Of a stretch of DNA of 64,000 nucleotides, positions 31,601-45,029 are shown one piece after another. This stretch comes from Solidesulfovibrio fructosivorans JJ] (lineage in GTDB: Bacteria; Desulfobacterota; Desulfovibrionia; Desulfovibrionales; Desulfovibrionaceae). Where the stretch lies: assembly GCF_000179555.1 (NCBI RefSeq), contig NZ_AECZ01000018.1, forward strand, positions 1 to 64,000, given 5' to 3'. The notes below the pieces were generated by a model that saw only the letters and a list, made by a program, of their open reading frames with translations, was not told where the DNA came from and searched no databases. The position numbers and the translations under genes were made by a program. Positions within the stretch are counted from its first letter, which is position 1. The number at the start of each line of letters is the position of its first letter.

Positions 31601-31630
31601 TTGACAACTTCCAGCGGCCCCGCGTAGCTC
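31601..31630 (+). promoter_or_regulatory. Putative promoter of the aromatic/trp operon
   Basis: A perfect -35 TTGACA (31601-31606) is followed after 18 bp by a weak -10 TAGCTC (31625-31630). Transcription would begin near 31637, only a base or two before the leader ATG at 31639, so the leader would be translated from a leaderless message. That agrees with the lack of a ribosome site in front of it. Confidence 0.5.
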
Positions 31631-31638
31631 TCTTGGCC

Positions 31639-31728
31639 ATGCAATCCCTCACCAACCTGACCGCCGGTTTTTATTTTTGGTTCTGGTTTAGCCACGCCCG
31701 TGGTCAGGGAGGGGTGCGGTCGAACTAA
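31639..31728 (+). CDS. Aromatic leader peptide (attenuation peptide, 29 residues)
   Basis: A 29-codon ORF whose middle reads FYFWFWF (codons 11-17, 31669-31689): four Phe, one Tyr and two Trp codons in a row. It is followed 23 bp later by an intrinsic terminator and then by the first gene of the aromatic/trp operon. This is the standard layout of a ribosome-mediated attenuator: scarcity of charged tRNA for any of the three amino acids would stall the ribosome on these codons. Classical leaders sense one or two amino acids; this one would sense all three products of the operon, which contains pheA, tyrA and the trp genes. No Shine-Dalgarno is visible. Confidence 0.85.
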
Positions 31729-31784
31729 CGAAACCGCAACGAGCCACTCCAGGGCCGCGGGCATCACGCCGGCGGCCCTTTTTT
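31692..31784 (+). terminator. Attenuator: alternative stems and intrinsic terminator before the aromatic operon
   Basis: The terminator is GGGCCGC (31752-31758) with GCGGCCC (31772-31778), an inner GGC/GCC pair, then six T (31779-31784). Upstream, GCGGTC (31716-31721) can pair with GGCCGC of the terminator arm (31753-31758, one G-U), giving a possible antiterminator. CACGCCC (31693-31699) can pair with GGGGTG (31711-31716) with one bulge, which would compete for that antiterminator. A stem TGCGGT/ACCGCA (31715-31738) is also possible. The order 1:2, 2:3, 3:4 matches trp-type attenuation; the fold has not been computed. Confidence 0.75.
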
Positions 31785-31838
31785 GTTTCCTGTCGTCGGC
31801 GTTCCCCCCTCGGGAGGCCAAACCGCAAGGAGACCATC

Positions 31839-32636
31839 ATGCTGCTGGGTAAAGCCGTCCGCCTCGAACGCATTTTCAATCGCAACACGCACCGCGCCAT
31901 CATCGTCCCCATGGACCACGGCGTCACCGTCGGCCCCATCTCCGGGCTCATCGACATGCGCGACGCCGTCAACCAGGTGGCCGAGGGCGGCGCCAACGCC
32001 GTGCTCATGCACAAGGGCCTGCCCCGCTGCTCCCATCGCGGCCGGGGTCGCGACGTGGGGCTGATCATCCACCTGTCCGCCTCCACCTCGCTTTCCCCCT
32101 TCCCCAACGCCAAGGCCCTGGTGGCCACGGTCGAGGACGCCATCAAGCTCGGCGCGGACGGCGTGTCGCTGCACATCAACCTCGGCGACGAGACCGAGCG
32201 CGACATGCTCGGGCATCTCGGCGAAGCCACCTCCCGCGCCGCCGAATGGGGCATGCCGGTTCTGGCCATGGTCTACGCCCGCGGCCCCAAGGTGAAAAAC
32301 GAGTACGACCCCGAGGTGGTGGCCCACTGCGCCCGGGTCGGCACCGAACTCGGCGCGGACGTGGTCAAGGTCCCCTACACCGGCGACATCAAATCCTTCA
32401 CCCGCGTCACCGACGCCTGCTGCATCCCGGTGGTCATCGCCGGCGGCCCCAAGATGGACAACGACCGCGACCTGCTCCAGATGGCCCACGACTCCATCCA
32501 GGCCGGCGGCTCCGGACTGTCCATCGGCCGCAACATCTTCCAGCACAAGCAGCCGGCCCGCATCGTCCAGGCGCTTCACGGCATCGTGCACCTCGACTGG
32601 GAAGTCGATCAGGCCCTCGAACTGCTCAAGGACTAA
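31839..32636 (+). CDS. 2-amino-3,7-dideoxy-D-threo-hept-6-ulosonate (ADH) synthase, AroA'-type
   Basis: A 265-residue class I aldolase-family enzyme (DeoC/FbaB fold). In the alternative early shikimate route it makes ADH, replacing DAHP synthase. Key features are [11 protein letters not shown] near residue 23 and VVKVPYTGD near 170, where the lysine is the expected Schiff-base residue, followed by VVIAGGPK and SIGRNIFQH for phosphate binding. It is placed directly before dehydroquinate synthase II, which makes this assignment far better than fructose-bisphosphate aldolase. AAGGAG precedes the ATG. It is the first structural gene after the aromatic attenuator. Confidence 0.92.
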
Positions 32637-32638
32637 TC

Positions 32639-33613
32639 ATGACCAAGGAAATCTGGCTCAAAGCCATCCCGTTCGACAAAACGCTCGTCACCCTCGGCCT
32701 CGAATCCGGCGTGGACGGGTTCGTGGCCGAGGCGGCGGACGCCGAAAAGATCCTGGCGCTCGGGCGCACCAGGGTCATGACGCCCGAGGAGATGGACCTG
32801 ATCCCCATCGACTGCAAGGACGACGAAGGCACGGCCGTCGAGGCGCTCAGGGCCTGCCGGCCGGTCTTTCTGGCCAAAGGCTGGGAGATCATCCCGGTGG
32901 AGAACATCCTGGCCTGCACCGAAGGGCTCGGGCTCGAGTGCGAGAGCCTGGATCGGGCCAGACTCGCGGCCGGGGTGCTGGAACGCGGCGCGGACAAGCT
33001 CTTGATCGCCCCCGAGGCCATCTGCGACCTGAAGACCATCGTCAACGAACTGAAGCTTTCCCAGGGCACCATGGAGCTTTCGCCGGCCACCATCACCAAG
33101 ATCGAACACGCCGGCCTCGGGCACCGGGTCTGCGTGGACACGACCAGCATCCTCAAAACCGGCGAAGGCATGCTCGTCGGCAACTCCTCGGCGTTCACCT
33201 TCCTGGTCAACGCCGAAACCGAGTCCAACCCCTACGTGGCGGCGCGGCCCTTTCGCATAAACGCCGGCGCGGTCCATGCCTACTGCCAGATGCCCGGGGA
33301 CAAGACCCGCTACCTGGAGGAGCTGGCCGCCGGCTCGGAAGTGCTGGTCGTCTCCCACGCCGGGGCCACCAAGACGGCGGTGGTCGGCCGGATCAAGACC
33401 GAGATCCGCCCCATGCTGCTCATCACGGCGGAAGCGGACGGCAAGGAAGGCAAGGTGTTTATGCAAAACGCCGAGACCATCCGGCTGGTGACGCCCGAGG
33501 GCAGGCCCGTCAGCGTCGTGAACCTGAAGGAAGGCGATGCGGTGCTCGTGCGCACCGACGTGGCCGGCCGCCATTTCGGCATGCGCATCGCCGAAGACAT
33601 CAAGGAAGGTTAG
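32639..33613 (+). CDS. 3-dehydroquinate synthase II (AroB'-type)
   Basis: A 324-residue enzyme of the archaeal-type DHQ synthase family, unrelated to classical AroB. It oxidatively deaminates and cyclises ADH to 3-dehydroquinate. Diagnostic stretches are ATITKIEHAGLGHRVCVDTTS, GMLVGNSSAFTFLVNAETESNPYVAARPFRINAGAVHAY and LEELAAGSEVLVVSHAG. The start ATG is 2 bp past the stop of the ADH synthase gene, with AAGGA at 32628-32632 inside that gene, indicating translational coupling. A longer upstream frame exists but only through the preceding gene. Confidence 0.94.
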   Translation: MTKEIWLKAIPFDKTLVTLGLESGVDGFVAEAADAEKILALGRTRVMTPEEMDLIPIDCKDDEGTAVEALRACRPVFLAKGWEIIPVENILACTEGLGLECESLDRARLAAGVLERGADKLLIAPEAICDLKTIVNELKLSQGTMELSPATITKIEHAGLGHRVCVDTTSILKTGEGMLVGNSSAFTFLVNAETESNPYVAARPFRINAGAVHAYCQMPGDKTRYLEELAAGSEVLVVSHAGATKTAVVGRIKTEIRPMLLITAEADGKEGKVFMQNAETIRLVTPEGRPVSVVNLKEGDAVLVRTDVAGRHFGMRIAEDIKEG

Positions 33614-33614
33614 G

Positions 33615-34772
33615 ATGGCCCCCGAGACGCCAGAAAACGCCGCCAGCGCTCAGGGGACCCTGGAAGAGGCCCTGCTCGAACTGCGAAACGGCATCGACGC
33701 CGTGGACGGGCAGATACTCACCCTGCTCAACAAGCGGGCGGGCCTGAGCCTCGAGGTCGGACGCAGGAAGGCCGGCCGCCAGAGCGCCGTGTTCAAGCCT
33801 TTCCGCGAGCAGGAAGTGATGGAAAGGCTGGCCGCGAAAAACCCCGGCCCCCTGCCCGTGCCCCACCTGCTCGCCATCTACCGGGAGATCCTCTCCTCCT
33901 CGCGCCGGCTCCAGCGCCCCGAGCGCGTGGCCTACCTCGGCCCAGAAGGCACCTTCTCCCACTTCGCGGCCATGGCCGCCCTGGGCCATTCCCCGGACTT
34001 CCTGCCCCAGACCACCATCGGCGACGTCTTCGAAGCGGTCGCCGACAGACGGGCGGACCTCGGCGTCGTGCCGCTCGAAAACTCGCTGCAAGGCACCGTC
34101 GGCCAAAGCCTCGACCACTTCCAGCGCCACGAGGTCTTCATCCAGGCCGAGATCTCCTGCCGCGTGAGCCACGCCCTGCTCTCAACGGCCGGCGACATCG
34201 AGCGGATCGAGACCGTCTACTCCCATCCCCAGCCCCTGGCCCAGTGCGCCGCCTGGCTCAAGACGCATCTGCCGGGGGCGCGGATCATCCCCACCGACTC
34301 CACGGCGGCCGCCGCCCTGCGCCTGGCCGGGGAACCGACCGCCGCCTCCATCGGGCACGTCAGGCTCGCCGCCATGCACGGGCTCAACATCCTGGCCAGT
34401 CCCATCGAGGACATGCCGGACAACTGGACCCGCTTTTTCATCATCGGCCCCGAGGACACCAAGCAGCAGACCAGGGACAAGACCTCGGTCCTTTTCACCG
34501 TGCCCAACAAGCCCGGATCGCTCTACCAGGTGCTCTCGCATCTGGCCGGCGAGGGCATCAACCTGACCAAACTCGAATCGCGGCCCATACGCGGCGAAAA
34601 ATGGCAGTACGTCTTTTTCGCCGACCTCCAGTGCGACCTCACCCGGGAAGAGTACAAAAAACTCCTGGCCACGCTGCGGGAACAGACGCTGAGCCTGCGC
34701 ATTCTCGGCTGTTACCCGGTCGGCAGGCAGGTGAACCTCGCCGACGGCGACATGGAACAGACCGGAGATTAA
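33615..34772 (+). CDS. pheA: Bifunctional chorismate mutase / prephenate dehydratase
   Basis: A 385-residue P-protein. Residues about 18-100 are an AroQ chorismate mutase helix bundle (LRNGIDAVDGQILTLLNKRAGL). Residues about 110-285 are prephenate dehydratase, with YLGPEGTFSHFAA, VPLENSLQGTVGQ and the catalytic TRF in NWTRFFIIG. Residues about 295-375 are a regulatory ACT domain with the ESRP phenylalanine-binding motif (KLESRPIRGEKW). It converts chorismate to phenylpyruvate with feedback by Phe. It starts one base after the DHQ synthase II stop. Confidence 0.96.
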   Translation: MAPETPENAASAQGTLEEALLELRNGIDAVDGQILTLLNKRAGLSLEVGRRKAGRQSAVFKPFREQEVMERLAAKNPGPLPVPHLLAIYREILSSSRRLQRPERVAYLGPEGTFSHFAAMAALGHSPDFLPQTTIGDVFEAVADRRADLGVVPLENSLQGTVGQSLDHFQRHEVFIQAEISCRVSHALLSTAGDIERIETVYSHPQPLAQCAAWLKTHLPGARIIPTDSTAAAALRLAGEPTAASIGHVRLAAMHGLNILASPIEDMPDNWTRFFIIGPEDTKQQTRDKTSVLFTVPNKPGSLYQVLSHLAGEGINLTKLESRPIRGEKWQYVFFADLQCDLTREEYKKLLATLREQTLSLRILGCYPVGRQVNLADGDMEQTGD

Positions 34773-34838: not shown

Positions 34839-36158
34839 ATGCCAACCGTCGCCGCGCCACCCTCGAAGTCCGTCTCGCACCGGGCCGTCATCGCCGCCAG
34901 CCTCGCCGCCGGCACAAGCCGCGTCAGCGGCCTGCTCGACAGCCAGGACATCACCCGTACCCGGGACTGCATGGCCGCCATGGGCGCGGACTTTCATCCG
35001 CAGTCCGACGGCTCGGTCATCGTCTCCGGCACCGCCGGCCATCCCCAAGGCGGCGACGTCGAACACGACGAGCCGCAAATCCTCGACGTGGGCGAATCCG
35101 GCACCACCTGCCGCCTGCTCACCGCCGTGGCCGCCGCCGGCCGGGGCGTCTTCGAGATCCGCGGCGAGGGCCGCATGCACGACCGCCCCATCGGCGAGCT
35201 GGTCAACGCCCTGCTGCCGCTCGGCGTCGAAATCCTCTACCTCGAGAAGTCCGGCTGCCCGCCCCTGCACATGGCCTCAAACGGCCTCTCGGGCGGCACC
35301 GCCTCCATCAGCCTGGAGGACAGCTCCCAATACCTTTCCGGCCTGCTGCTGGCCGCGCCCCTGGCCGCCGCGCCGCTGACCGTCGAAATCACCGGCAACA
35401 AAACCGTGTCCTGGCCCTACGTCGCCATCACCCTGTCCACCCTGGCCGACTTCAGCGTGCCCTTCGCCGTGGAGACCCGCGACGGCGACGCCTGGGAACG
35501 CGTCGACTGGCGCACGCTCACCGACGTCATCCCCGGACAGGTGCGCTTCGCCATGCGCCCCGCCCTCTACAAGCCACGCGACTATGCCGTGGAAGGCGAC
35601 TGGTCGAGCGCGTCCTACTTCCTGGCCGCCGGCGCCGTGGGCAAGGCCCCGGTCACCGTCACCGGCCTGCGCCCGGACTCGCTCCAGGGCGACCGCGCCA
35701 TCTGCGACATCCTCGCCCGCATGGGCGCGCGCATCGAGGCGGGACCCGACGGCATCACCGTGCTGCCAGGCAGCCTCACCGGCCAGGACCTCGACATGGG
35801 CCGCTGCCCGGACCTCGTTCCGACCGTGGCCACGGCCGCCTGCTTCGCCAAGGGAGAAACGACCATCCGAAACGTCGCCCACCTGCGCCTCAAGGAGTCC
35901 GACCGCATCGAAGCCGTGGCCGAAAACTGCACCCAGGCCGGCGCGGTCGTCACCACCACCCCCGACGGCATGCGCATCAAGCCCCGGCCGCTGCCCACAG
36001 GGGAACGCGTCGAATTTTCCGCCTTCGGCGACCATAGGCTGGCCATGTCCGCCGCCATCTTCGAAATGGCCGGCATCGAGGTGGCCCTGGACAACCCCGC
36101 CTGCGTGGCCAAGTCGTTCCCGACGTTCTGGGAGAAATGGCGCACGTTACGGCCGTAG
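34839..36158 (+). CDS. aroA: 3-phosphoshikimate 1-carboxyvinyltransferase (EPSP synthase)
   Basis: A 439-residue two-domain inside-out barrel that joins shikimate 3-phosphate and phosphoenolpyruvate. Motifs: PSKSVSHRA at the N-terminus (substrate lysine and serine), DVGESGTTCRLL, GEGRMHDRPIGEL, and HLRLKESDRIEAVAEN in the C-terminal domain, with FGDHRLAMSAA. AAAGGA precedes the ATG at 34839. The Pro-Ser-Lys-Ser motif begins at residue 8, as in most family members, supporting this start. It is followed by a 270-bp repeat-rich spacer before tyrA. Confidence 0.96.
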   Translation: MPTVAAPPSKSVSHRAVIAASLAAGTSRVSGLLDSQDITRTRDCMAAMGADFHPQSDGSVIVSGTAGHPQGGDVEHDEPQILDVGESGTTCRLLTAVAAAGRGVFEIRGEGRMHDRPIGELVNALLPLGVEILYLEKSGCPPLHMASNGLSGGTASISLEDSSQYLSGLLLAAPLAAAPLTVEITGNKTVSWPYVAITLSTLADFSVPFAVETRDGDAWERVDWRTLTDVIPGQVRFAMRPALYKPRDYAVEGDWSSASYFLAAGAVGKAPVTVTGLRPDSLQGDRAICDILARMGARIEAGPDGITVLPGSLTGQDLDMGRCPDLVPTVATAACFAKGETTIRNVAHLRLKESDRIEAVAENCTQAGAVVTTTPDGMRIKPRPLPTGERVEFSAFGDHRLAMSAAIFEMAGIEVALDNPACVAKSFPTFWEKWRTLRP

Positions 36159-36428: not shown

Positions 36429-37331
36429 ATGTCGAATATGAACAAAGATACGAACACCCCCACCCCGCCAAGAGTTTTTGGGGAGGGTGGGGGTCCGGGG
36501 GAGGGGACCCCTTTTTGCAAAAAGGGGTCCCCTCCCCCGGAGTCTTCCCTCCTCTCCATCGGCTCCCTCGCCCTGGTCGGGGCGCGGGGGGGGATGGGGA
36601 AGCTGATTGTCGGGAGGTGCCGGGAAGCCGGACTTACGGTTCGGGAGCTGGACCGGCCGCTGACGGACGAGAAGATCGCGGAGGGCGTTGCGGGCGCGGA
36701 CATGGTGCTGGTGTCCGTGCCGGTCTACGCCACGGGCGAAGTGGCCGAAAAGGTCGCCGCGCGCATGGGGGGCAGGCAGATTCTGGCCGACGTGGGTTCG
36801 GTCAAGACGCAGCCCATCAACGACATGGTCGCGCAGTATCATGGTCCGGTGGTCGGCACGCATCCGCTTTTCGGGCCGGCTCCGGGGCCTGACGACGCGC
36901 TCCGGGTGGCGGTCATGGACGGCCGGCCGGGGGAAGATGTCTGGGCCACGCGGGCGGTTGCCGACTGGTGCCGGCGCATCGGGTTTACGCCCTTCGCCTC
37001 GGACGCCGAGGAGCACGACCGGGCGGCGGCCTATGTGCAGGGGCTCAATTTCGTCACCACCCTGGCCTATCTGGCGGCCCAGGGGGCCGGCGGCGCGGTG
37101 CAAAAGTACCTGACGCCGTCGTTTACCCGACGCCTGGTCGCGGCCGAAAAACTCATCACCAAGGACGCGGGGCTTTTCACCGCGCTTTACGAAGCCAATC
37201 CGTACAGCCATGAGGCCGTGCGCAATTTTCGCAGCTTTCTCAACCTCGCCGCCGGCGGCGACGTGGACCTGCTCGTTCGCCGCGCCGAGGCGTGGTGGAC
37301 CGCCGAAACGGCAAAAAAGGACAATCCATGA
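36429..37331 (+). CDS. tyrA: Prephenate dehydrogenase with a palindromic repeat translated near its N-terminus
   Basis: A 300-residue frame. The enzyme proper begins at SLALVGARGGMGKLIV (about residue 46), a Rossmann motif. HPLFGP follows near 146, and EEHDRAAAYVQGLNF near 196 is the prephenate dehydrogenase signature. It makes 4-hydroxyphenylpyruvate for tyrosine. The first ~45 residues are unlike any dehydrogenase: codons about 14-38 are a family A repeat (36469-36540) read in frame as Pro/Gly-rich peptide. AAAAGG precedes the ATG at 36429, and no ATG, GTG or TTG lies in frame between the repeat and the domain, so the repeat must be translated unless an unusual start is used. The 3' end overlaps trpE by 4 bp. 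Confidence 0.85.
   Translation: MSNMNKDTNTPTPPRVFGEGGGPGEGTPFCKKGSPPPESSLLSIGSLALVGARGGMGKLIVGRCREAGLTVRELDRPLTDEKIAEGVAGADMVLVSVPVYATGEVAEKVAARMGGRQILADVGSVKTQPINDMVAQYHGPVVGTHPLFGPAPGPDDALRVAVMDGRPGEDVWATRAVADWCRRIGFTPFASDAEEHDRAAAYVQGLNFVTTLAYLAAQGAGGAVQKYLTPSFTRRLVAAEKLITKDAGLFTALYEANPYSHEAVRNFRSFLNLAAGGDVDLLVRRAEAWWTAETAKKDNP
36469..36540 (+). repeat. Family A palindromic repeat, copy 3 (inside the tyrA reading frame)
   Basis: Flank AGAGTTTTTGGGGAGGG, then a perfect 22-bp stem: arm from CCGGGGGAGGGGACCCC (36495-36516) and its complement ending CCCCTCCCCCGG (36519-36540), loop GC. Its 72 bases are a multiple of three and contain no stop in the tyrA frame. Confidence 0.9.
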
Positions 37332-38746
37332 GTGCGATTACGCTGAGGCAGGAAGGGACGTGGCTGCCGGCCGACGTGCAGACGCCCATAAGCCTTTTTC
37401 TCGGGCTTGTGGGGGAGAGGCCGGGCATACTGCTCGAAAGCGCCGAGGTGGACGGCCGGCTGGGCCGTTACAGCGTCATCGCCTGGGATTTCCGGCTGCG
37501 GCTGCGGCTCAAAGACGGCAAGCTCGACGTCAACGCCACGGACGACCGGCTGAAGGCCCTGGAGGGGTACAACGGCCAGGGCTTCCTGGAAGGCATGCGC
37601 GGCCTCATGGCCGACCTGCGCGTGCTGCCGCCGGAAGGCTTCAAGGACGTGCCGCCCATCACGCGGTCCCTGACCGGCTATTTCGGCTACGGCATCGCCG
37701 GCATTCTCGAGCCCAAGCTGGCCAAGGTCCTGCCGCCCGAGGAGGCGGAGTTCTGCCTGGTGCTGCCCGGCCGGGTGGTGCTGTTCGACCACGTCAAGCA
37801 CCGCTGCCTGCATCTTTCCCTGGACCCCGGCAAGAAGGCCCGCATCGACTATTCCAACATCTTCGCGCCCATGAACCGGCCGGTCATCGGCAAGGTGGTC
37901 AACCGCCCCGAAGCCGAAGGCTATATGGAGGCCGTGACCAAGTGCAAGGAGATGATCCGGGCCGGGGAGTGCATCCAGACGGTGCTTTCCACGCAGTTTT
38001 CCGCGCCGTTTTCCGGCGATCCCTTCGTGGTCTACCGTCGGCTGCGCCAGGTGAACCCCTCGCCGTACATGTTCTTCATGCGCCTGCCGCGGGTGACGCT
38101 ACTCGGCTCCTCGCCGGAGCTGCTCATCCGCTGCCGCGACGGCGAGCTGACCACCTGCCCCATCGCCGGGACCAGACCGCGCGGCAAGACGCCCGAGCAG
38201 GACGACAGGCTGGCCGAGGAGCTGATGGCCGACCCCAAGGAACGCGCCGAGCACGTCATGCTGGTGGACCTCGGCCGCAACGACCTGGGGCGCATGGCCG
38301 GACCGGGCACGGTCAAAGTCGAGAAGTTCATGGCCGTGGAACGCTTTTCCCACGTCATGCACATCGTGTCCTACGTGACGGCCAGGCTCAAGGACGGTCT
38401 CGACGCCCTGGACGTGCTCAAGTGCGCCTTTCCGGCCGGAACCCTTTCCGGCGCGCCCAAGGTGCGGGCCATGGAGATGATCGCCGAGCTGGAGCACAGC
38501 CTGCCGCGCGGGCCGTACGCCGGCTGCATCGGCTGGATCGGCCTGGACGAGGGACGCGTGAACCTGGACACGGGCATCACCATCCGCAGCATGTGGATAC
38601 GCGACGGCATGCTGACCTGGCAGGCCGGGGCCGGCATCGTTTTCGATTCCGATCCGGCCAAGGAATGGACGGAGTGCCAGAACAAGGCCCGGGTGATCAC
38701 CGAGGTGCTGGCGGCCAAGGAGGATGGCGATGTTTTTACTTATTGA
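37328..38746 (+). CDS. trpE: Anthranilate synthase component I
   Basis: A 472-residue chorismate-utilising enzyme. The N-terminal LLESAEVDGRLGRYS matches the LLES...S tryptophan feedback site, so product inhibition is likely intact. The C-terminal domain has FSAPFSGDPFVVYRRLR, GSSPELLI, IAGTRPRGKTPEQD, DLGRNDLGR and PAGTLSGAPKVRAMEMI. With TrpG it converts chorismate and glutamine to anthranilate. The start at 37328 overlaps the tyrA stop (ATGA) with AAAGGA upstream; the frame continues further up only within tyrA. The gene ends 17 bp inside trpG. Confidence 0.96.
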   Translation: MSAITLRQEGTWLPADVQTPISLFLGLVGERPGILLESAEVDGRLGRYSVIAWDFRLRLRLKDGKLDVNATDDRLKALEGYNGQGFLEGMRGLMADLRVLPPEGFKDVPPITRSLTGYFGYGIAGILEPKLAKVLPPEEAEFCLVLPGRVVLFDHVKHRCLHLSLDPGKKARIDYSNIFAPMNRPVIGKVVNRPEAEGYMEAVTKCKEMIRAGECIQTVLSTQFSAPFSGDPFVVYRRLRQVNPSPYMFFMRLPRVTLLGSSPELLIRCRDGELTTCPIAGTRPRGKTPEQDDRLAEELMADPKERAEHVMLVDLGRNDLGRMAGPGTVKVEKFMAVERFSHVMHIVSYVTARLKDGLDALDVLKCAFPAGTLSGAPKVRAMEMIAELEHSLPRGPYAGCIGWIGLDEGRVNLDTGITIRSMWIRDGMLTWQAGAGIVFDSDPAKEWTECQNKARVITEVLAAKEDGDVFTY

Positions 38747-39302
38747 TAACTTCGACTCGTTCACCTTCAACGTGGTCCAGGCTTTTCAGCAACTGGGCCG
38801 CGACCCGGTGGTCAAAAAGAACGACGACCCGGAAATCCTGGAGCTGGCCTCCTCCGGCAAGCTCGACATGGTCTGCATCTCGCCCGGACCCAGCAACCCG
38901 ACCAATGCCGGGTTGTGCTTGCAGTTTCTCGCGCAACTGCCAAAACAGACCCCTGTGTTCGGCGTTTGCCTGGGGCACCAGATCCTCGGGCACTTCGCCG
39001 GCGCGCCGGTCGTCGTGGCCGACCGCATCATGCACGGCAAGACGTCGGACGTGTACCACCGCGAAACGGGGCTGTTCGAAGGGCTGCCCAATCCCTTCGA
39101 GTGCTGCCGCTACCATTCGCTGGTGGTGCTCGCGGGCAAGGCTCCGGAGAAGCTGGAGATCACGGCCTGGACCGACCGAAACGAGGTGATGGGACTGCGG
39201 TATCGCGACCGGCCCTGGGTAGGGGTGCAGTTTCATCCGGAATCGGTGTTCACTCCCGACGGGATGAAGCTGATCGGGAACTTTCCGGACAAGATTCTAT
39301 AA
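38730..39302 (+). CDS. trpG: Anthranilate synthase component II (glutamine amidotransferase)
   Basis: A 190-residue class I amidotransferase that supplies ammonia to TrpE. The triad is visible: cysteine in GVCLGHQILG, histidine and glutamate in GVQFHPESVFT. The N-terminus MFLLIDNFDSFTFN is typical. There are two in-frame ATGs; I use 38730 because AAGGAGG (38717-38723) is six bases upstream of it and would touch the one at 38724. It overlaps trpE by 17 bp, so the two subunits are translationally coupled. Confidence 0.95.
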   Translation: MFLLIDNFDSFTFNVVQAFQQLGRDPVVKKNDDPEILELASSGKLDMVCISPGPSNPTNAGLCLQFLAQLPKQTPVFGVCLGHQILGHFAGAPVVVADRIMHGKTSDVYHRETGLFEGLPNPFECCRYHSLVVLAGKAPEKLEITAWTDRNEVMGLRYRDRPWVGVQFHPESVFTPDGMKLIGNFPDKIL

Positions 39303-39731: not shown

Positions 39732-40742
39732 ATGGAAAAACATGTCGAATGCCTGGAACTTCTCGCCATCGGCAAGGACCTGCCCAAGGATCTGGCCACC
39801 TACGCCTTCCGGGCCATGTACACCGGCGAGATGCCGGCCTCGTGCGTGGGCGCGTTCCTGATGGGGCTCAAGACCAAGGGCGAATCCGCCGTGGAGATCG
39901 CGGCCGGCGTCACCACGGCCCTGGAAGAGGCGCGCATCGTCGGGGGGCTCACCGGAGCGCGCATCGACACCTGCGGCACCGGCGGCGACAACACATGTTC
40001 GTTTAACTGCTCCACCGCCGTGGCGCTCTACCTCGCCGCCCTGGGCCACAAGGTGGTCAAGCACGGCAACCGCGCCGTCTCCAGCTCCTGCGGCAGCGCC
40101 GACGCCGTGGAATCCCTGGGATTCACCCTGGTGGTCGAACCCGAACTGGTGGCGGCCGAGCTCGACAAGCACAACTTCGTCTTTCTCTTCGCCCCCAACT
40201 ACCACCCGGCCTTCAAGCGCATCGGCCCCATCCGCAAGGAACTCGGCGTGCGCTCGCTGTTCAATCTCATGGGCCCCCTGCTCAACCCCGCCCGCCCCAC
40301 CCACCAGCTCCTCGGCGTGCCCACCTCCCGCCACGTGCGGCTCATGGGCGAAGTGCTGGCCCTGACCGGCCTGTCCTGCGGCGCGGTGGTCCACGGGGCC
40401 GGCGGCTTCGACGAGCTGACGCCCTTCGGCCCGGCCGACGTGTGCTGGCTGCGCGACGGCTGGATCAAAAGCGACCGCATCGACCCGGCCGATTTCGGCA
40501 TCCCGCCCCACAAGCCGTCCGACGTGGTCGTCTCCGGCCGCGACGAGGCCGTGGCCGTCCTGCGCGAGATCCTGGCCGGCAAGGGCAACGCGGCCATGCG
40601 CGACATGGTGGCGCTTAACCTCGGCTGCTCCCTGCACCTACTCGAGGATGGCCTTTCCCTCAAACAGGGCGTGGACAAGGCCCGCGACGCCGTCGCTTCC
40701 GGCATCGCCGCCAGGTTCTTCGAGGATGTGCTCCATGCTTGA
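39732..40742 (+). CDS. trpD: Anthranilate phosphoribosyltransferase
   Basis: A 336-residue enzyme that joins anthranilate to PRPP. The glycine-rich PRPP motif is DTCGTGGDNTCSFNCSTAVA (about residues 78-97), then VKHGNRAVSSSCGSADAVESLG, and later FNLMGPLLNPARPTHQLLGV. Length and motifs are standard. AAAGGAG lies eight bases before the ATG. The 3' end overlaps trpC by 8 bp. Confidence 0.96.
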   Translation: MEKHVECLELLAIGKDLPKDLATYAFRAMYTGEMPASCVGAFLMGLKTKGESAVEIAAGVTTALEEARIVGGLTGARIDTCGTGGDNTCSFNCSTAVALYLAALGHKVVKHGNRAVSSSCGSADAVESLGFTLVVEPELVAAELDKHNFVFLFAPNYHPAFKRIGPIRKELGVRSLFNLMGPLLNPARPTHQLLGVPTSRHVRLMGEVLALTGLSCGAVVHGAGGFDELTPFGPADVCWLRDGWIKSDRIDPADFGIPPHKPSDVVVSGRDEAVAVLREILAGKGNAAMRDMVALNLGCSLHLLEDGLSLKQGVDKARDAVASGIAARFFEDVLHA

Positions 40743-41505
40743 GAAGTTCCGGGCCGCCCAGGCCACGGCCATAAAACGCCTCAAGGACCTCGAGGCGGCC
40801 CAGCGCCTGCCCGCGCCCTATGACGGCAAACGGCCGCCCTTTTCCGACGCCTTGCTCGCCGCCGGCCCCGTCGCCGTCATCGCCGAGTACAAACGGGCCT
40901 CGCCGTCGGCGGGCGACATCAACCTGGGGCTCGCCCCGGGCGAAGTCGCGGCCATGTACGCCGCCTCCGGGGCCGCCGCCATCTCGGTCCTGACCGAGGA
41001 GACGTACTTCAAGGGCTCCGTCGATTATCTGGAACCCATCAGCGCCGCCGGGCTCCCCATGCTGCGCAAGGACTTCCTGCTCCACCCGCTCCAGGTGGTG
41101 GAGACCGCCGCCACCAAGGCCTCGGCCCTGCTTTTGATCGTGCGCATGCTGACCGACGCGGAGCTGGCCGAGATGCTGCGCCTGACCTACGACGCCGGCC
41201 TCGAGGCCGTGGTCGAGGTCTTCGACGAGGCCGACCTGGCCCGGGCCGAGTCCGCCGGGGCGCACATCATCCAGGTCAACAGCCGCGACCTGAACACGCT
41301 GACGACCGACCTGGCCGTGGCCCGGCGCATGGCCGCCCTGAAACGTCCGGGACGCATCTGGATCGCCGCCAGCGGCATCGCCAGCCGCGCCGACGTGCTC
41401 GCCATGGCCGCCATCGGCTACAACGCCGTGCTCGTCGGCACCTCCATCATGAGCGAACCCGATCCCGGCCAGGCCCTGGCCCGGCTCACCGGAAAGGCGG
41501 ACTGA
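40735..41505 (+). CDS. trpC: Indole-3-glycerol-phosphate synthase
   Basis: A 256-residue (beta/alpha)8 barrel. Catalytic motifs: IAEYKRASPSAGDI (lysine and serine near residue 53), ISVLTEETYFKGS, LRKDFLLHP with the catalytic lysine, and QVNSRDLNTL. It closes the ring of the carboxyphenylamino intermediate. The ATG at 40735 lies within the last codons of trpD with GAGGATG upstream; a longer frame exists only through trpD. Confidence 0.96.
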   Translation: MLEKFRAAQATAIKRLKDLEAAQRLPAPYDGKRPPFSDALLAAGPVAVIAEYKRASPSAGDINLGLAPGEVAAMYAASGAAAISVLTEETYFKGSVDYLEPISAAGLPMLRKDFLLHPLQVVETAATKASALLLIVRMLTDAELAEMLRLTYDAGLEAVVEVFDEADLARAESAGAHIIQVNSRDLNTLTTDLAVARRMAALKRPGRIWIAASGIASRADVLAMAAIGYNAVLVGTSIMSEPDPGQALARLTGKAD

Positions 41506-41506
41506 C

Positions 41507-42133
41507 ATGGCCGACATCCTTGTCAAAATCTGCGGCATGACCCGCCCCGAGGACGTCCTCGGCTGCGCCGAGGCCGGAGCCGACCTGCTCGGATTCATCT
41601 TCGCCGCCAAAAGCCCGCGTTGCCTGACGGCCGCGCAGGCCGCCGCCCTGCCCCGCACCAGGGCAAAGCGCGTCGGCGTGTTCGTCGAACAGACCCTCGA
41701 CGAGGTCCTGCGCATCATGGACCAAGCCGAACTCGACTTCGCCCAGCTCCACGGCGGGCAGGACGAAGCGTTCTGCCGCGCCATAGGCCCGGAGCGCGTC
41801 ATCCGCGCCTTCTGGCCGAAAAGACACCCGGACACGGCCGCCCTCGTCGCCGCCATGGAACCCTTCGCGGGCGCGATTCGCTACGCGCTCCTCGACGCCG
41901 GCACCTCCGGCGGCGGCCACGGCGTGTCCCTCGACTTCGCCTCCCTGGCCCAATTTTCCCCGCCCATGCCCTGGCTCCTGGCCGGCGGCCTGGGACCCGA
42001 CAACATCACCGAGGCCCTGGCCCAAGCCAACCCCCACGGGCTGGACCTCAACTCCGGCGTGGAATCCTCCCCGGGGCTCAAGGACCTCGCAAAAGTCCGG
42101 AGGTCCCTTTGGTCCGTGAAAGGGAGAGGATAA
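41507..42133 (+). CDS. trpF: Phosphoribosylanthranilate isomerase
   Basis: A 208-residue TIM barrel with the N-terminal active-site motif KICGMTRPED (catalytic cysteine), LGFIFAAKSPR, LDFAQLHGGQ, LLDAGTSGGGHG (catalytic aspartate) and LAGGLGPDNITEAL, ending GLDLNSGVESSPGLKD. It starts one base after trpC. After trpF the operon is interrupted by a 230-bp repeat-filled spacer. Confidence 0.96.
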   Translation: MADILVKICGMTRPEDVLGCAEAGADLLGFIFAAKSPRCLTAAQAAALPRTRAKRVGVFVEQTLDEVLRIMDQAELDFAQLHGGQDEAFCRAIGPERVIRAFWPKRHPDTAALVAAMEPFAGAIRYALLDAGTSGGGHGVSLDFASLAQFSPPMPWLLAGGLGPDNITEALAQANPHGLDLNSGVESSPGLKDLAKVRRSLWSVKGRG

Positions 42134-42363: not shown

Positions 42364-43548
42364 ATGCGTAAAGCGTACTTTGGAGACTTCGGGGGACAGT
42401 TTGTCCCCGAACTGCTCATGCCGCCGCTTCTGGAGCTGGAAGAGGCCATGAAGACCATCGTGCCGAGCGAGAAGTTCCAGAAGGAACTGAACGCGCTGCT
42501 GACTGATTATGTGGGCCGGCCCTCGCCGCTGTACCGCTGCCCCAACCTGTCCAAGGAGCTGGGGTTCGATCTGTGGCTCAAAAGGGAAGACCTGAACCAT
42601 ACCGGCGCGCACAAGATCAACAACACCATGGGCCAGGGGCTGCTGACGAAATACATGGGCAAGCAGGTGCTTCTGGCCGAGACCGGGGCCGGCCAGCACG
42701 GCGTGGCCACGGCCACGGCCGCCGCCATGTTGGGCCTTGGCTGCATCGTCTACATGGGAGCCGAGGACGTTTCCCGCCAGTCCCACAACGTCAAACGGAT
42801 GAAGCTCCTTGGCGCGGAGGTCGTGCCCATCGAATCCGGCACCAAGACCCTCAAGGACGCCATCAACGCGGCGCTACGCTACTGGATCGCCGAGCAGCGC
42901 ACCACGCACTACTGTTTCGGCACGGCGGCCGGGCCCCATCCCTTTCCCACGCTGGTGCGCGACTTCCAGGCCGTGATTTCCAAGGAAGCCCGGGCCCAGT
43001 GTCTGGAGAAGATGGGCCGACTGCCGGACTACGTGGTCGCCTGCGTGGGCGGCGGTTCCAACGCCATCGGCATGTTCCACCACTTCGAACCGGACGCGTC
43101 GGTCAAGCTCATCGGCGTGGAAGCCGCCGGCACGGGCGAACCGGGCTGCTATAACTCCGCGCCCATAAACCTCGGCACGCCGGGGGTGCTCCACGGCATG
43201 CACTCCATGCTCCTGCAAACCAAGGAAGGGCAGATCCAGCCTTCCCATTCCGTGTCCGCCGGCCTGGACTATCCCGGCGTCGGGCCCGAGCACGCCCATC
43301 TGGCCGCCACAGGCCGGGTGCACTACGGCATGGCCGTGGATGCCGAGGCGCTCAAGGCCTTCGAGGTCCTGTGCCACCGGGAGGGCATCATCCCGGCCCT
43401 TGAAAGCTCCCATGCCGTGGGCTGGGTGCTGACCCACGCCGCAGAGATTCCGAAAGGGTCGCAGGTGGTGGTGTGTCTGTCCGGCCGGGGCGACAAGGAC
43501 CTCGGCATCATCGAAGCCTGCGAAAAAAAGGCGGGAGGCCGCGCATGA
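42364..43548 (+). CDS. trpB: Tryptophan synthase beta subunit (TrpB1 type)
   Basis: A 394-residue PLP enzyme that condenses indole with serine. The PLP lysine lies in HTGAHKINN (near residue 85), with [11 protein letters not shown] and the phosphate-binding [10 protein letters not shown]. The N-terminus [15 protein letters not shown] is the classical TrpB1 start that contacts TrpA. GGAGG is seven bases before the ATG, right behind a hairpin repeat, so initiation may depend on how that hairpin folds. The stop overlaps the trpA start (ATGA). Confidence 0.97.
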
Positions 43549-44315
43549 GCCAGTCCATTCTCACCACACGCATCATGGAGGCGCTGGCGGCCGGCCGCAA
43601 GGCGCTCATTCCGTTTCTGCCCGGAGGCTTTCCGGACAAGGAACGCTTTTTCGACGAACTCGACGCGCTGGATGCCGGCGGCGCGGATATCATCGAGATC
43701 GGCGTGCCCTTTTCCGACCCCGTGGCCGACGGCCCGGTGGTGGAAAAAGCCTCCCTCGATTGCCTTTTAAACGGCACCTGCCTGTCCTGGCTGCTCCACG
43801 AGCTCGAACGCCGCAAGGGCCGCTACAAGGCCGGCCTCGTGCTCATGGGCTACTACAATCCCTTTCTCCAGTACGGCCTGGAGAATCTTGCCGAGGATGC
43901 GGCGGCGGCCGGGGTGTCGGGCTTCATCGTCCCGGACCTGCCCCTGGAGGAAGCCGGCCCCATGGCCGAGACCCTGGGGAAACACGACCTGGACCTGATC
44001 CCGCTGGTCGGGCTCAACACCTCCGAGGAGCGCCTCGCCGCCTACGCGGCCCATGCCCGGGGATTCGTCTACTTCGTCTCCGTGCTCGGCACCACGGGCA
44101 TGCGCGAGACGCTGCCGGCCGAAATCGCCGAGCACCTCGCCTCGGTGCGCCGCATCTTCGACGTGCCCGTGGCCCTCGGGTTCGGCATCAAATCCCCGGA
44201 ACAGCTCATCCCCTTCGGCGACAGCATCGACGCCGTGGTCTTCGGCTCGGCGCTGATCGCCCACATCGAGACCGGCGGCACGGCCGCCGAATTCATGCAG
44301 CGCTGGCGCAGCTGA
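43545..44315 (+). CDS. trpA: Tryptophan synthase alpha subunit
   Basis: A 256-residue TIM barrel that splits indole-glycerol phosphate. Catalytic glutamate and aspartate are in [46 protein letters not shown] and [10 protein letters not shown] follow, with GSAL near the phosphate site. The start at 43545 has GGGAGG upstream and overlaps the trpB stop. It is the last gene of the aromatic operon; a strong hairpin follows. Confidence 0.97.
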
Positions 44316-44332
44316 CCGCGAATGATACGGGC

Positions 44333-44357
44333 GGCCGGTCTCCCGGGGAGACCGGCC
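44333..44357 (+). terminator. Hairpin after trpA, probable operon end
   Basis: Perfect 11-bp stem GGCCGGTCTCC (44333-44343) with GGAGACCGGCC (44347-44357), three-base loop, 18 bp past the trpA stop. A second palindromic stretch around CCCGGCCGGG follows to 44390. There is no T tract. Confidence 0.55.
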
Positions 44358-44417
44358 CAAGGTCCCCGGCCGGTATGCGACCCGGCCGGGCGGCCGAATC
44401 CGTCGCGGGAAGCCGCC

Positions 44418-45029
44418 ATGCACCTTCAAAACTACACCGCCTATCTCACCGCCCTGACCGCCAGTATGCTCACCCCCGGCCCGGCCATGTTGCAGGCGCT
44501 GACCCTCGGCGTGCGCCACGGCTGCCGGCCCGTCGTTTTCGTGGCCCTGGGCAACGTCTGCGCGACGCTCGTCCAGATCGTCGTCACCCTGTACGGGCTT
44601 TCGCTGCTCGGGCGCGAGCCGTGGCTGCTTCGCGCGGCAAGCCTTGCCGGCGCGGTCTACATCGCCTGGCTGGGGTTCGTCCTGTGGCGGACCGGGGCCA
44701 GACGCATCGCCCCGGACGCCGCCGGCGACCGGCCGCCGCTTGTTTCCCTCGCCCTGCAAGGCGCGGGCGTGGCCGCGGTCAACCCCAAGGCCTGGGGTTT
44801 TCTCGGCGCGCTCATGCCGCCCTTTGCCGCCGCCGGAATGCCGGCCGTGCCCGACATCGCGCTTCTGGCCGCGCCCATCTGCCTGCTCGCCTTCGGCGGC
44901 ATGCTGGCCTATGCCCGGTTCGGGGCCTTCCTGGCCACGGCGCTGGCCTCGCCGCGCGCGGCAAGGCGCTTTTTCCGCACCGTGGCCGCGACGCTTTGGG
45001 CCTGCGCCGGCTACTTCGCTTTCGGATAA
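44418..45029 (+). CDS. LysE/RhtB-family amino-acid exporter
   Basis: A 203-residue inner-membrane protein with about six helices. The family signature TPGPAMLQALTLGVRHG lies near residue 18, with GAVYIAWLGFVLWRTG in the middle and the VNPKAWGF motif. LysE/RhtB proteins export amino acids such as lysine, threonine or homoserine. It follows trpA by 100 bp in the same direction, so export of an aromatic amino acid is possible but unproven. The ATG at 44418 has only a weak GGGAAG upstream. Confidence 0.88.
   Translation: MHLQNYTAYLTALTASMLTPGPAMLQALTLGVRHGCRPVVFVALGNVCATLVQIVVTLYGLSLLGREPWLLRAASLAGAVYIAWLGFVLWRTGARRIAPDAAGDRPPLVSLALQGAGVAAVNPKAWGFLGALMPPFAAAGMPAVPDIALLAAPICLLAFGGMLAYARFGAFLATALASPRAARRFFRTVAATLWACAGYFAFG

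Follow-up and report, generated by a model that had tools for sequence, protein, structure and literature searches.

The window analysed here, a stretch of 64,000 nucleotides from a Solidesulfovibrio-like genome, carries a 12-gene aromatic operon in the order ADH synthase-DHQ synthase II-pheA-aroA-tyrA-trpEGDCFBA. This gene content confirmed the preliminary description, which had placed an operon with pheA, tyrA and the whole trp pathway downstream of a leader. The leader and an intrinsic terminator (31751-31779, between the leader ORF and the first gene) precede the operon, whose first structural gene runs from 31839. The features are as follows.

31601-31630, forward strand: sigma-70-type promoter, with -35 TTGACA at 31601-31606, an 18-nt spacer and TAGCTC at 31625-31630
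31639-31728, forward strand: leader peptide ORF of 29 codons, ATG at 31639, stop TAA at 31726-31728
31642-31668, forward strand: segment 1, pairing with 31695-31717 (protector hairpin 1:2)
31669-31689, forward strand: regulatory codons 11-17, Phe-Tyr-Phe-Trp-Phe-Trp-Phe, a run kept aromatic in relatives
31696-31705, forward strand: segment 2, GCCCGTGGTC, leader codons 20-23, antiterminator strand
31753-31762, forward strand: segment 3, GGCCGCGGGC, partner of segment 2 (antiterminator) or of segment 4 (terminator)
31768-31784, forward strand: segment 4, terminator strand 31768-31779 and six T at 31779-31784
31839-32636, forward strand: 2-amino-3,7-dideoxy-D-threo-hept-6-ulosonate (ADH) synthase, first regulated gene (TIGR01949, 1.4e-119)
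32630-33613, forward strand: 3-dehydroquinate (DHQ) synthase II, start approximate (NF002628, 2e-171)
33537-34772, forward strand: pheA, chorismate mutase/prephenate dehydratase, real start probably downstream of 33537
34839-36158, forward strand: aroA, 3-phosphoshikimate 1-carboxyvinyltransferase
36429-37331, forward strand: tyrA, prephenate dehydrogenase
37292-39302, forward strand: trpE and trpG
39732-42133, forward strand: trpD, trpC and trpF
42364-44315, forward strand: trpB and trpA

A LysE-type translocator (44322-45029) adjoins the 3' side of trpA and is possibly an amino acid exporter of the same operon.

The aromatic run of the leader comprises four Phe codons, two Trp codons and one Tyr codon. 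Among the 785 small ATG ORFs of at least 10 aa in the window, this leader was the only one with at least seven consecutive F/Y/W residues, and no such ORF arose across 30 simulated (first-order Markov) windows. The 29-codon leader and its FYFWFWF run were thus confirmed in the sequence and found to be unique among the small ORFs of the window. The end of TAGCTC lies eight bases from the leader ATG, and transcription is expected to start at about 31637-31639. In a comparison of the promoters of 90 relatives, the distance from the last -10 base to the leader ATG was 6-9 nt in 70, and 70 leaders had an exact TTGACA. Shine-Dalgarno-like 4-mers were found upstream of 27 of 92 leaders vs 83 of 92 ADH synthase genes. 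Because the promoter-AUG spacing is conserved, the leader mRNA is predicted to begin within 0-2 bases of the AUG and is probably leaderless, which supports the earlier suggestion that the message starts almost at its AUG. The same start has been reported for trpL of S. meliloti, where the 5' end of the RNA is the leader AUG, but that leader reads only Trp and controls trpE(G) (PMC7298713).

To compare the locus more widely, relatives of its ADH synthase were gathered from named genomes and from 119 family genomes, giving 100 regions of up to ~13 kb. Leaders were found at the same place across Desulfovibrionales and Desulfobacterales. An aromatic-rich leader ORF lay upstream of most ADH synthase genes, roughly 160-300 bases away and ~400 bases away in Nitratidesulfovibrio. 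The N-terminal leader residues varied and the aromatic run was retained among the relatives compared. The preliminary description had proposed to ask whether the run outlasts drift in the remainder of the leader, and the answer spoke strongly for its reading. The leader lay ~400 bases upstream of the ADH synthase match in L169, L172 and L181 (genus g38) and in L069, L076 and L079 (Nitratidesulfovibrio or related); the ADH synthase frame was longer (~360 aa) in some of these loci, and the real start may be further upstream. Two tandem ADH synthase genes head the fused operon, with one FYW leader, in L134, L140, L143, L146, L148, L150 and L185; at L185 the contig ends close by and no leader was seen. 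The RNA model used in the searches (R1) is not family-specific, since outside the class it also finds trpE and leuA leaders and some unrelated sites, and matches outside the class were not counted as evidence of common descent. One such match, in another Desulfobacterota family (L331), was a Leu-rich leader, LLTLLPGLALLRLL, before a leuA-like gene. Weak R1 matches at other sites of the window's genome, at E 1e-4 or worse, were treated as chance.

Next, we considered the RNA structures. In the fold of 31637-31800, a check put forward in the preliminary description, hairpins 1:2 and 3:4 were predicted to form together at -66.3 kcal/mol, moderately better than shuffles (z -2.46). Hairpin 1:2, formed by segments 1 and 2, was stronger than shuffles in most leaders, with z < -2 in 50% and z -4.6 in the window. 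Both alternative structures were then tested for covariation on an alignment of 66 distinct leaders. The antiterminator, segment 2 with segment 3, was paired in 95.2% of cells vs at most ~44% in slid controls and showed double-sided changes in 6 of 10 pairs; shuffles, which ignore relatedness, did as well in 0 of 500 cases on four of five measures and in 1 of 500 on the fifth. The terminator, segment 3 with segment 4, was paired in 98.5% of cells, with 9 of 11 pairs changed on both sides and none of 500 equally uncorrected shuffles as good. Column pair 20:104 alternates between C:G, U:A and A:U, with double changes in 28 sequences. As the terminator has its mismatch at column 104, the covariation of the antiterminator has support independent of the terminator. 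Where the peptide changes from ARG or ACG to ASG, the base of the terminator arm that pairs there changes in step. Covariation thus supports the mutually exclusive stems as predicted structures, and the terminator with six T upstream of the operon, read correctly from the sequence at the outset, also covaries. The alternatives in the original stem arrangement are supported, but the antiterminator is best redefined as 31696-31705 paired with 31753-31762. No Rfam 15 covariance model matched at its gathering score, and the best window hit was to a model for an unrelated sRNA (E 0.24). The leader ORF explains the conservation; a T-box or TRAP-type attenuator would have a T-box sequence or repeated (G/U)AG sites in its place.

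The codon content of the leaders was then set against the genes that follow. In the fused operons that include trp genes, each of the 52 leaders carried F, Y and W, whereas W occurred in 2 of 26 leaders of stand-alone ADH synthase paralogues (Fisher p 4e-18). Related sequences inflate this and the other statistics given here, with fewer contrasts at the genus level; one of the two W-bearing stand-alone leaders (L207) is on a short contig end. The stand-alone leaders were Phe-only (such as FFFFFFF), Tyr-rich (such as YAYYYYY) or mixed Phe/Tyr, and most Phe-only leaders were without Tyr. The second ADH synthase of the window's own genome, L199 (G000:C7:132279-144500, C7:132979), stands alone behind a Tyr-rich leader, TRTFFAGSYYYY. 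The window switch belongs to a family whose members differ in specificity, and this Tyr-rich one lies at another site of its genome, an aspect absent from the preliminary description. In the genus of the window the stand-alone copy reads Tyr and the fused run has one Tyr codon, and in genomes with a Phe-reading stand-alone copy the fused leader tends to have fewer Phe codons (FFTYWYYW, NFWRWYWY). Where ADH synthase is directly followed by PheA, in loci named Desulfobacterales or Desulfobacteraceae, the leaders were Phe-rich, for example AFFFSFFGFF, and were picked up by the RNA model with E-values from 1e-11 to 1e-17. In separated trp operons most trpE genes had their own WWW or WW leader, of which the model recognises only some; many of the leaders of such operons in L336-L350 had three consecutive Trp codons.

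In genomes at least 88% complete where trpD was not found, six ADH-operon leaders had no Trp codon in the aromatic run, vs a Trp codon in 14 of 19 where trpD was present (p 0.003). There were exceptions: G006, G019, G035, G078 and G084 have trpD and no Trp codon in the run, and genus g40 keeps one Trp codon with its trp genes elsewhere. Genus g40, whose genomes carry only one ADH synthase, supplying Trp synthesis as well, is a counterexample to a simple rule limiting Trp codons to operons with trp genes, and the rule was rejected. Finally, in the Pseudodesulfovibrio-like genus g5, a sodium:solute symporter, a candidate Phe importer, lies behind a Phe leader, NRFSFFFFFSFRFF. The symporter (PF00474) behind a Phe-only leader and the same attenuator was seen in L255 (756-2363) and also in L237, L238, L251-L254, L261, L264 and L266. 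The claim that the window leader is tuned to all three end products is thus supported by the contrast between the fused F/Y/W leaders and the single-product paralogues.

We therefore consider the element to be a ribosome-mediated transcription attenuator with a leader peptide tuned to three amino acids, with a probability of roughly 0.86. The leader, the alternative structures, the promoter spacing and the codon-gene match come from comparison of sequences; for the transcription start, the stalling and the response to each amino acid we infer the following. Transcription would begin on or beside the leader AUG, with ribosome loading at the 5' end of the RNA. When Phe-, Tyr- or Trp-tRNA is scarce, the ribosome would wait in codons 11-17 and cover or open segment 1, leaving segment 2 free to pair with segment 3; the terminator would then not form and the entire aromatic operon would be transcribed. 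When all three tRNAs are plentiful, the ribosome would pass through segment 2, the 3:4 terminator would form and transcription would stop at the T-run. Without translation, hairpin 1:2 would also favour termination. The switch would in this way behave as an OR gate with three tRNA charge states as its inputs. If the ribosome footprint is of standard size, a stall at codons 11-16 would leave segment 2 essentially free and a stall at codon 17 would cover part of it. A ribosome at the stop codon would cover ~31710-31738 and not segment 2 itself, and termination with plentiful amino acids would therefore have to use timing, a steric block or the 1:2 hairpin.

Such an attenuator might work and respond effectively to no more than two of the three amino acids (Phe and Trp, say), with the lone Tyr codon merely carried along, and we regard this as unlikely, at a level that still deserves weight. 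The Phe-Tyr-Phe leader AroR of C. glutamicum, like the window leader, precedes a first-step aromatic enzyme and, as described, has Phe and Tyr codons only; Phe, but not Tyr, elicits a response from it (PMC11802643), so a codon may stand in a leader whose switch does not sense the amino acid concerned, although aroR-aroF controls DAHP synthase and not ADH synthase with a full operon. The single Tyr among four Phe and two Trp codons, and the separate Tyr-rich ADH synthase leader in the same genome, point the same way. However, Tyr is present in every one of the 52 fused leaders and absent from most Phe-only leaders, so it is no automatic companion of Phe.

Far less probable is an action of the leader peptide itself, by arresting the ribosome or by working in trans, with codon identity secondary. 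Nascent leader peptides can stall ribosomes, as TnaC does. The leaderless trpL of S. meliloti encodes a peptide (peTrpL) with functions in trans (PMC7298713), but in the Desulfobacterota leaders the aromatic identity (F, Y, W, FY or FYW) varies according to the genes that follow, and the residues after the run vary (ARG, ACG, ASG) as RNA pairing and not the peptide requires. That the ORF and hairpins arose by chance, in intergenic DNA that is GC-rich and ends in an ordinary terminator, is barely credible, for although GC-rich DNA folds readily and the z-score of the whole region is modest, the leader is kept in the great majority of relatives, both structures covary and the simulated windows gave no match.

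The attenuator with a three-amino-acid leader shares its alternative 1:2, 2:3 and 3:4 hairpins with trpL and pheL of E. coli and Salmonella. In enterobacteria a single leader, that of ilvGMEDA, reads Ile, Val and Leu, the products of a shared pathway, and the preliminary statement that known leaders sense one or two amino acids was thus too narrow. The ilvGMEDA leader, however, reads branched-chain and not aromatic amino acids, and we know of no paralogous leaders of this type re-tuned to single products. In E. coli, the first-step isozymes AroF, AroG and AroH are under different aromatic end products via TyrR and TrpR. These are repressor proteins, whereas the window-type isozymes apparently use leader peptides. 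In relatives, Phe-only, Tyr-rich, Phe/Tyr or Trp leaders would each act on the isozyme, branch or transporter that matches their codons. We think it fairly probable, with less assurance than for the window itself, that Desulfobacterota have a family of mostly leaderless attenuators that serves as an editable codon code: an FYW OR gate on the fused operon, with others tuned to Phe, Tyr, Phe/Tyr or Trp on ADH synthase isozymes, ADH synthase-pheA, trp operons and the symporter, as a leader-peptide counterpart of the AroF/AroG/AroH repressor scheme.

Among described systems, trpL and pheL (PMC11802643) likewise have a cognate-codon leader peptide and a terminator before a biosynthetic gene, but each reads one amino acid, whereas the window leader has codons for three, a fused operon and a start without a Shine-Dalgarno sequence. 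The ilvGMEDA operon is listed as attenuated (PMC1183508). In D. vulgaris, an attenuator of the aroA'-aroB'-pheA-aroF-tyrA-trp supraoperon, the same operon in a relative, was predicted computationally in 2005 from a prediction database (PMC1173090, Table 7); that paper gives no leader peptide or codon content, and the word 'leader' does not occur in it. In a survey of Rfam motifs with ten Desulfovibrionales among its genomes, the only attenuator models were those for His, Leu, Thr and Trp (PMC3766115). No paper describing a Desulfovibrio attenuator or leader peptide, or DVU0460, was found in a search that most subscription papers lay outside. The trivalent aromatic leader and the specialised paralogues appear undescribed in the literature searched; attenuation itself is of a known kind, and trivalence is known for branched-chain amino acids.

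The family offers a naturally replicated test of codon-function matching in attenuators, with one RNA architecture in many genera and the codons swapped according to the genes. The match between codons and genes allows substrate predictions, as for the symporter behind a Phe leader. These results suggest how sulfate reducers may regulate their archaeal-type aromatic pathway (ADH synthase/DHQ synthase II), and the switch would be a compact three-input sensor of aromatic tRNA charging.
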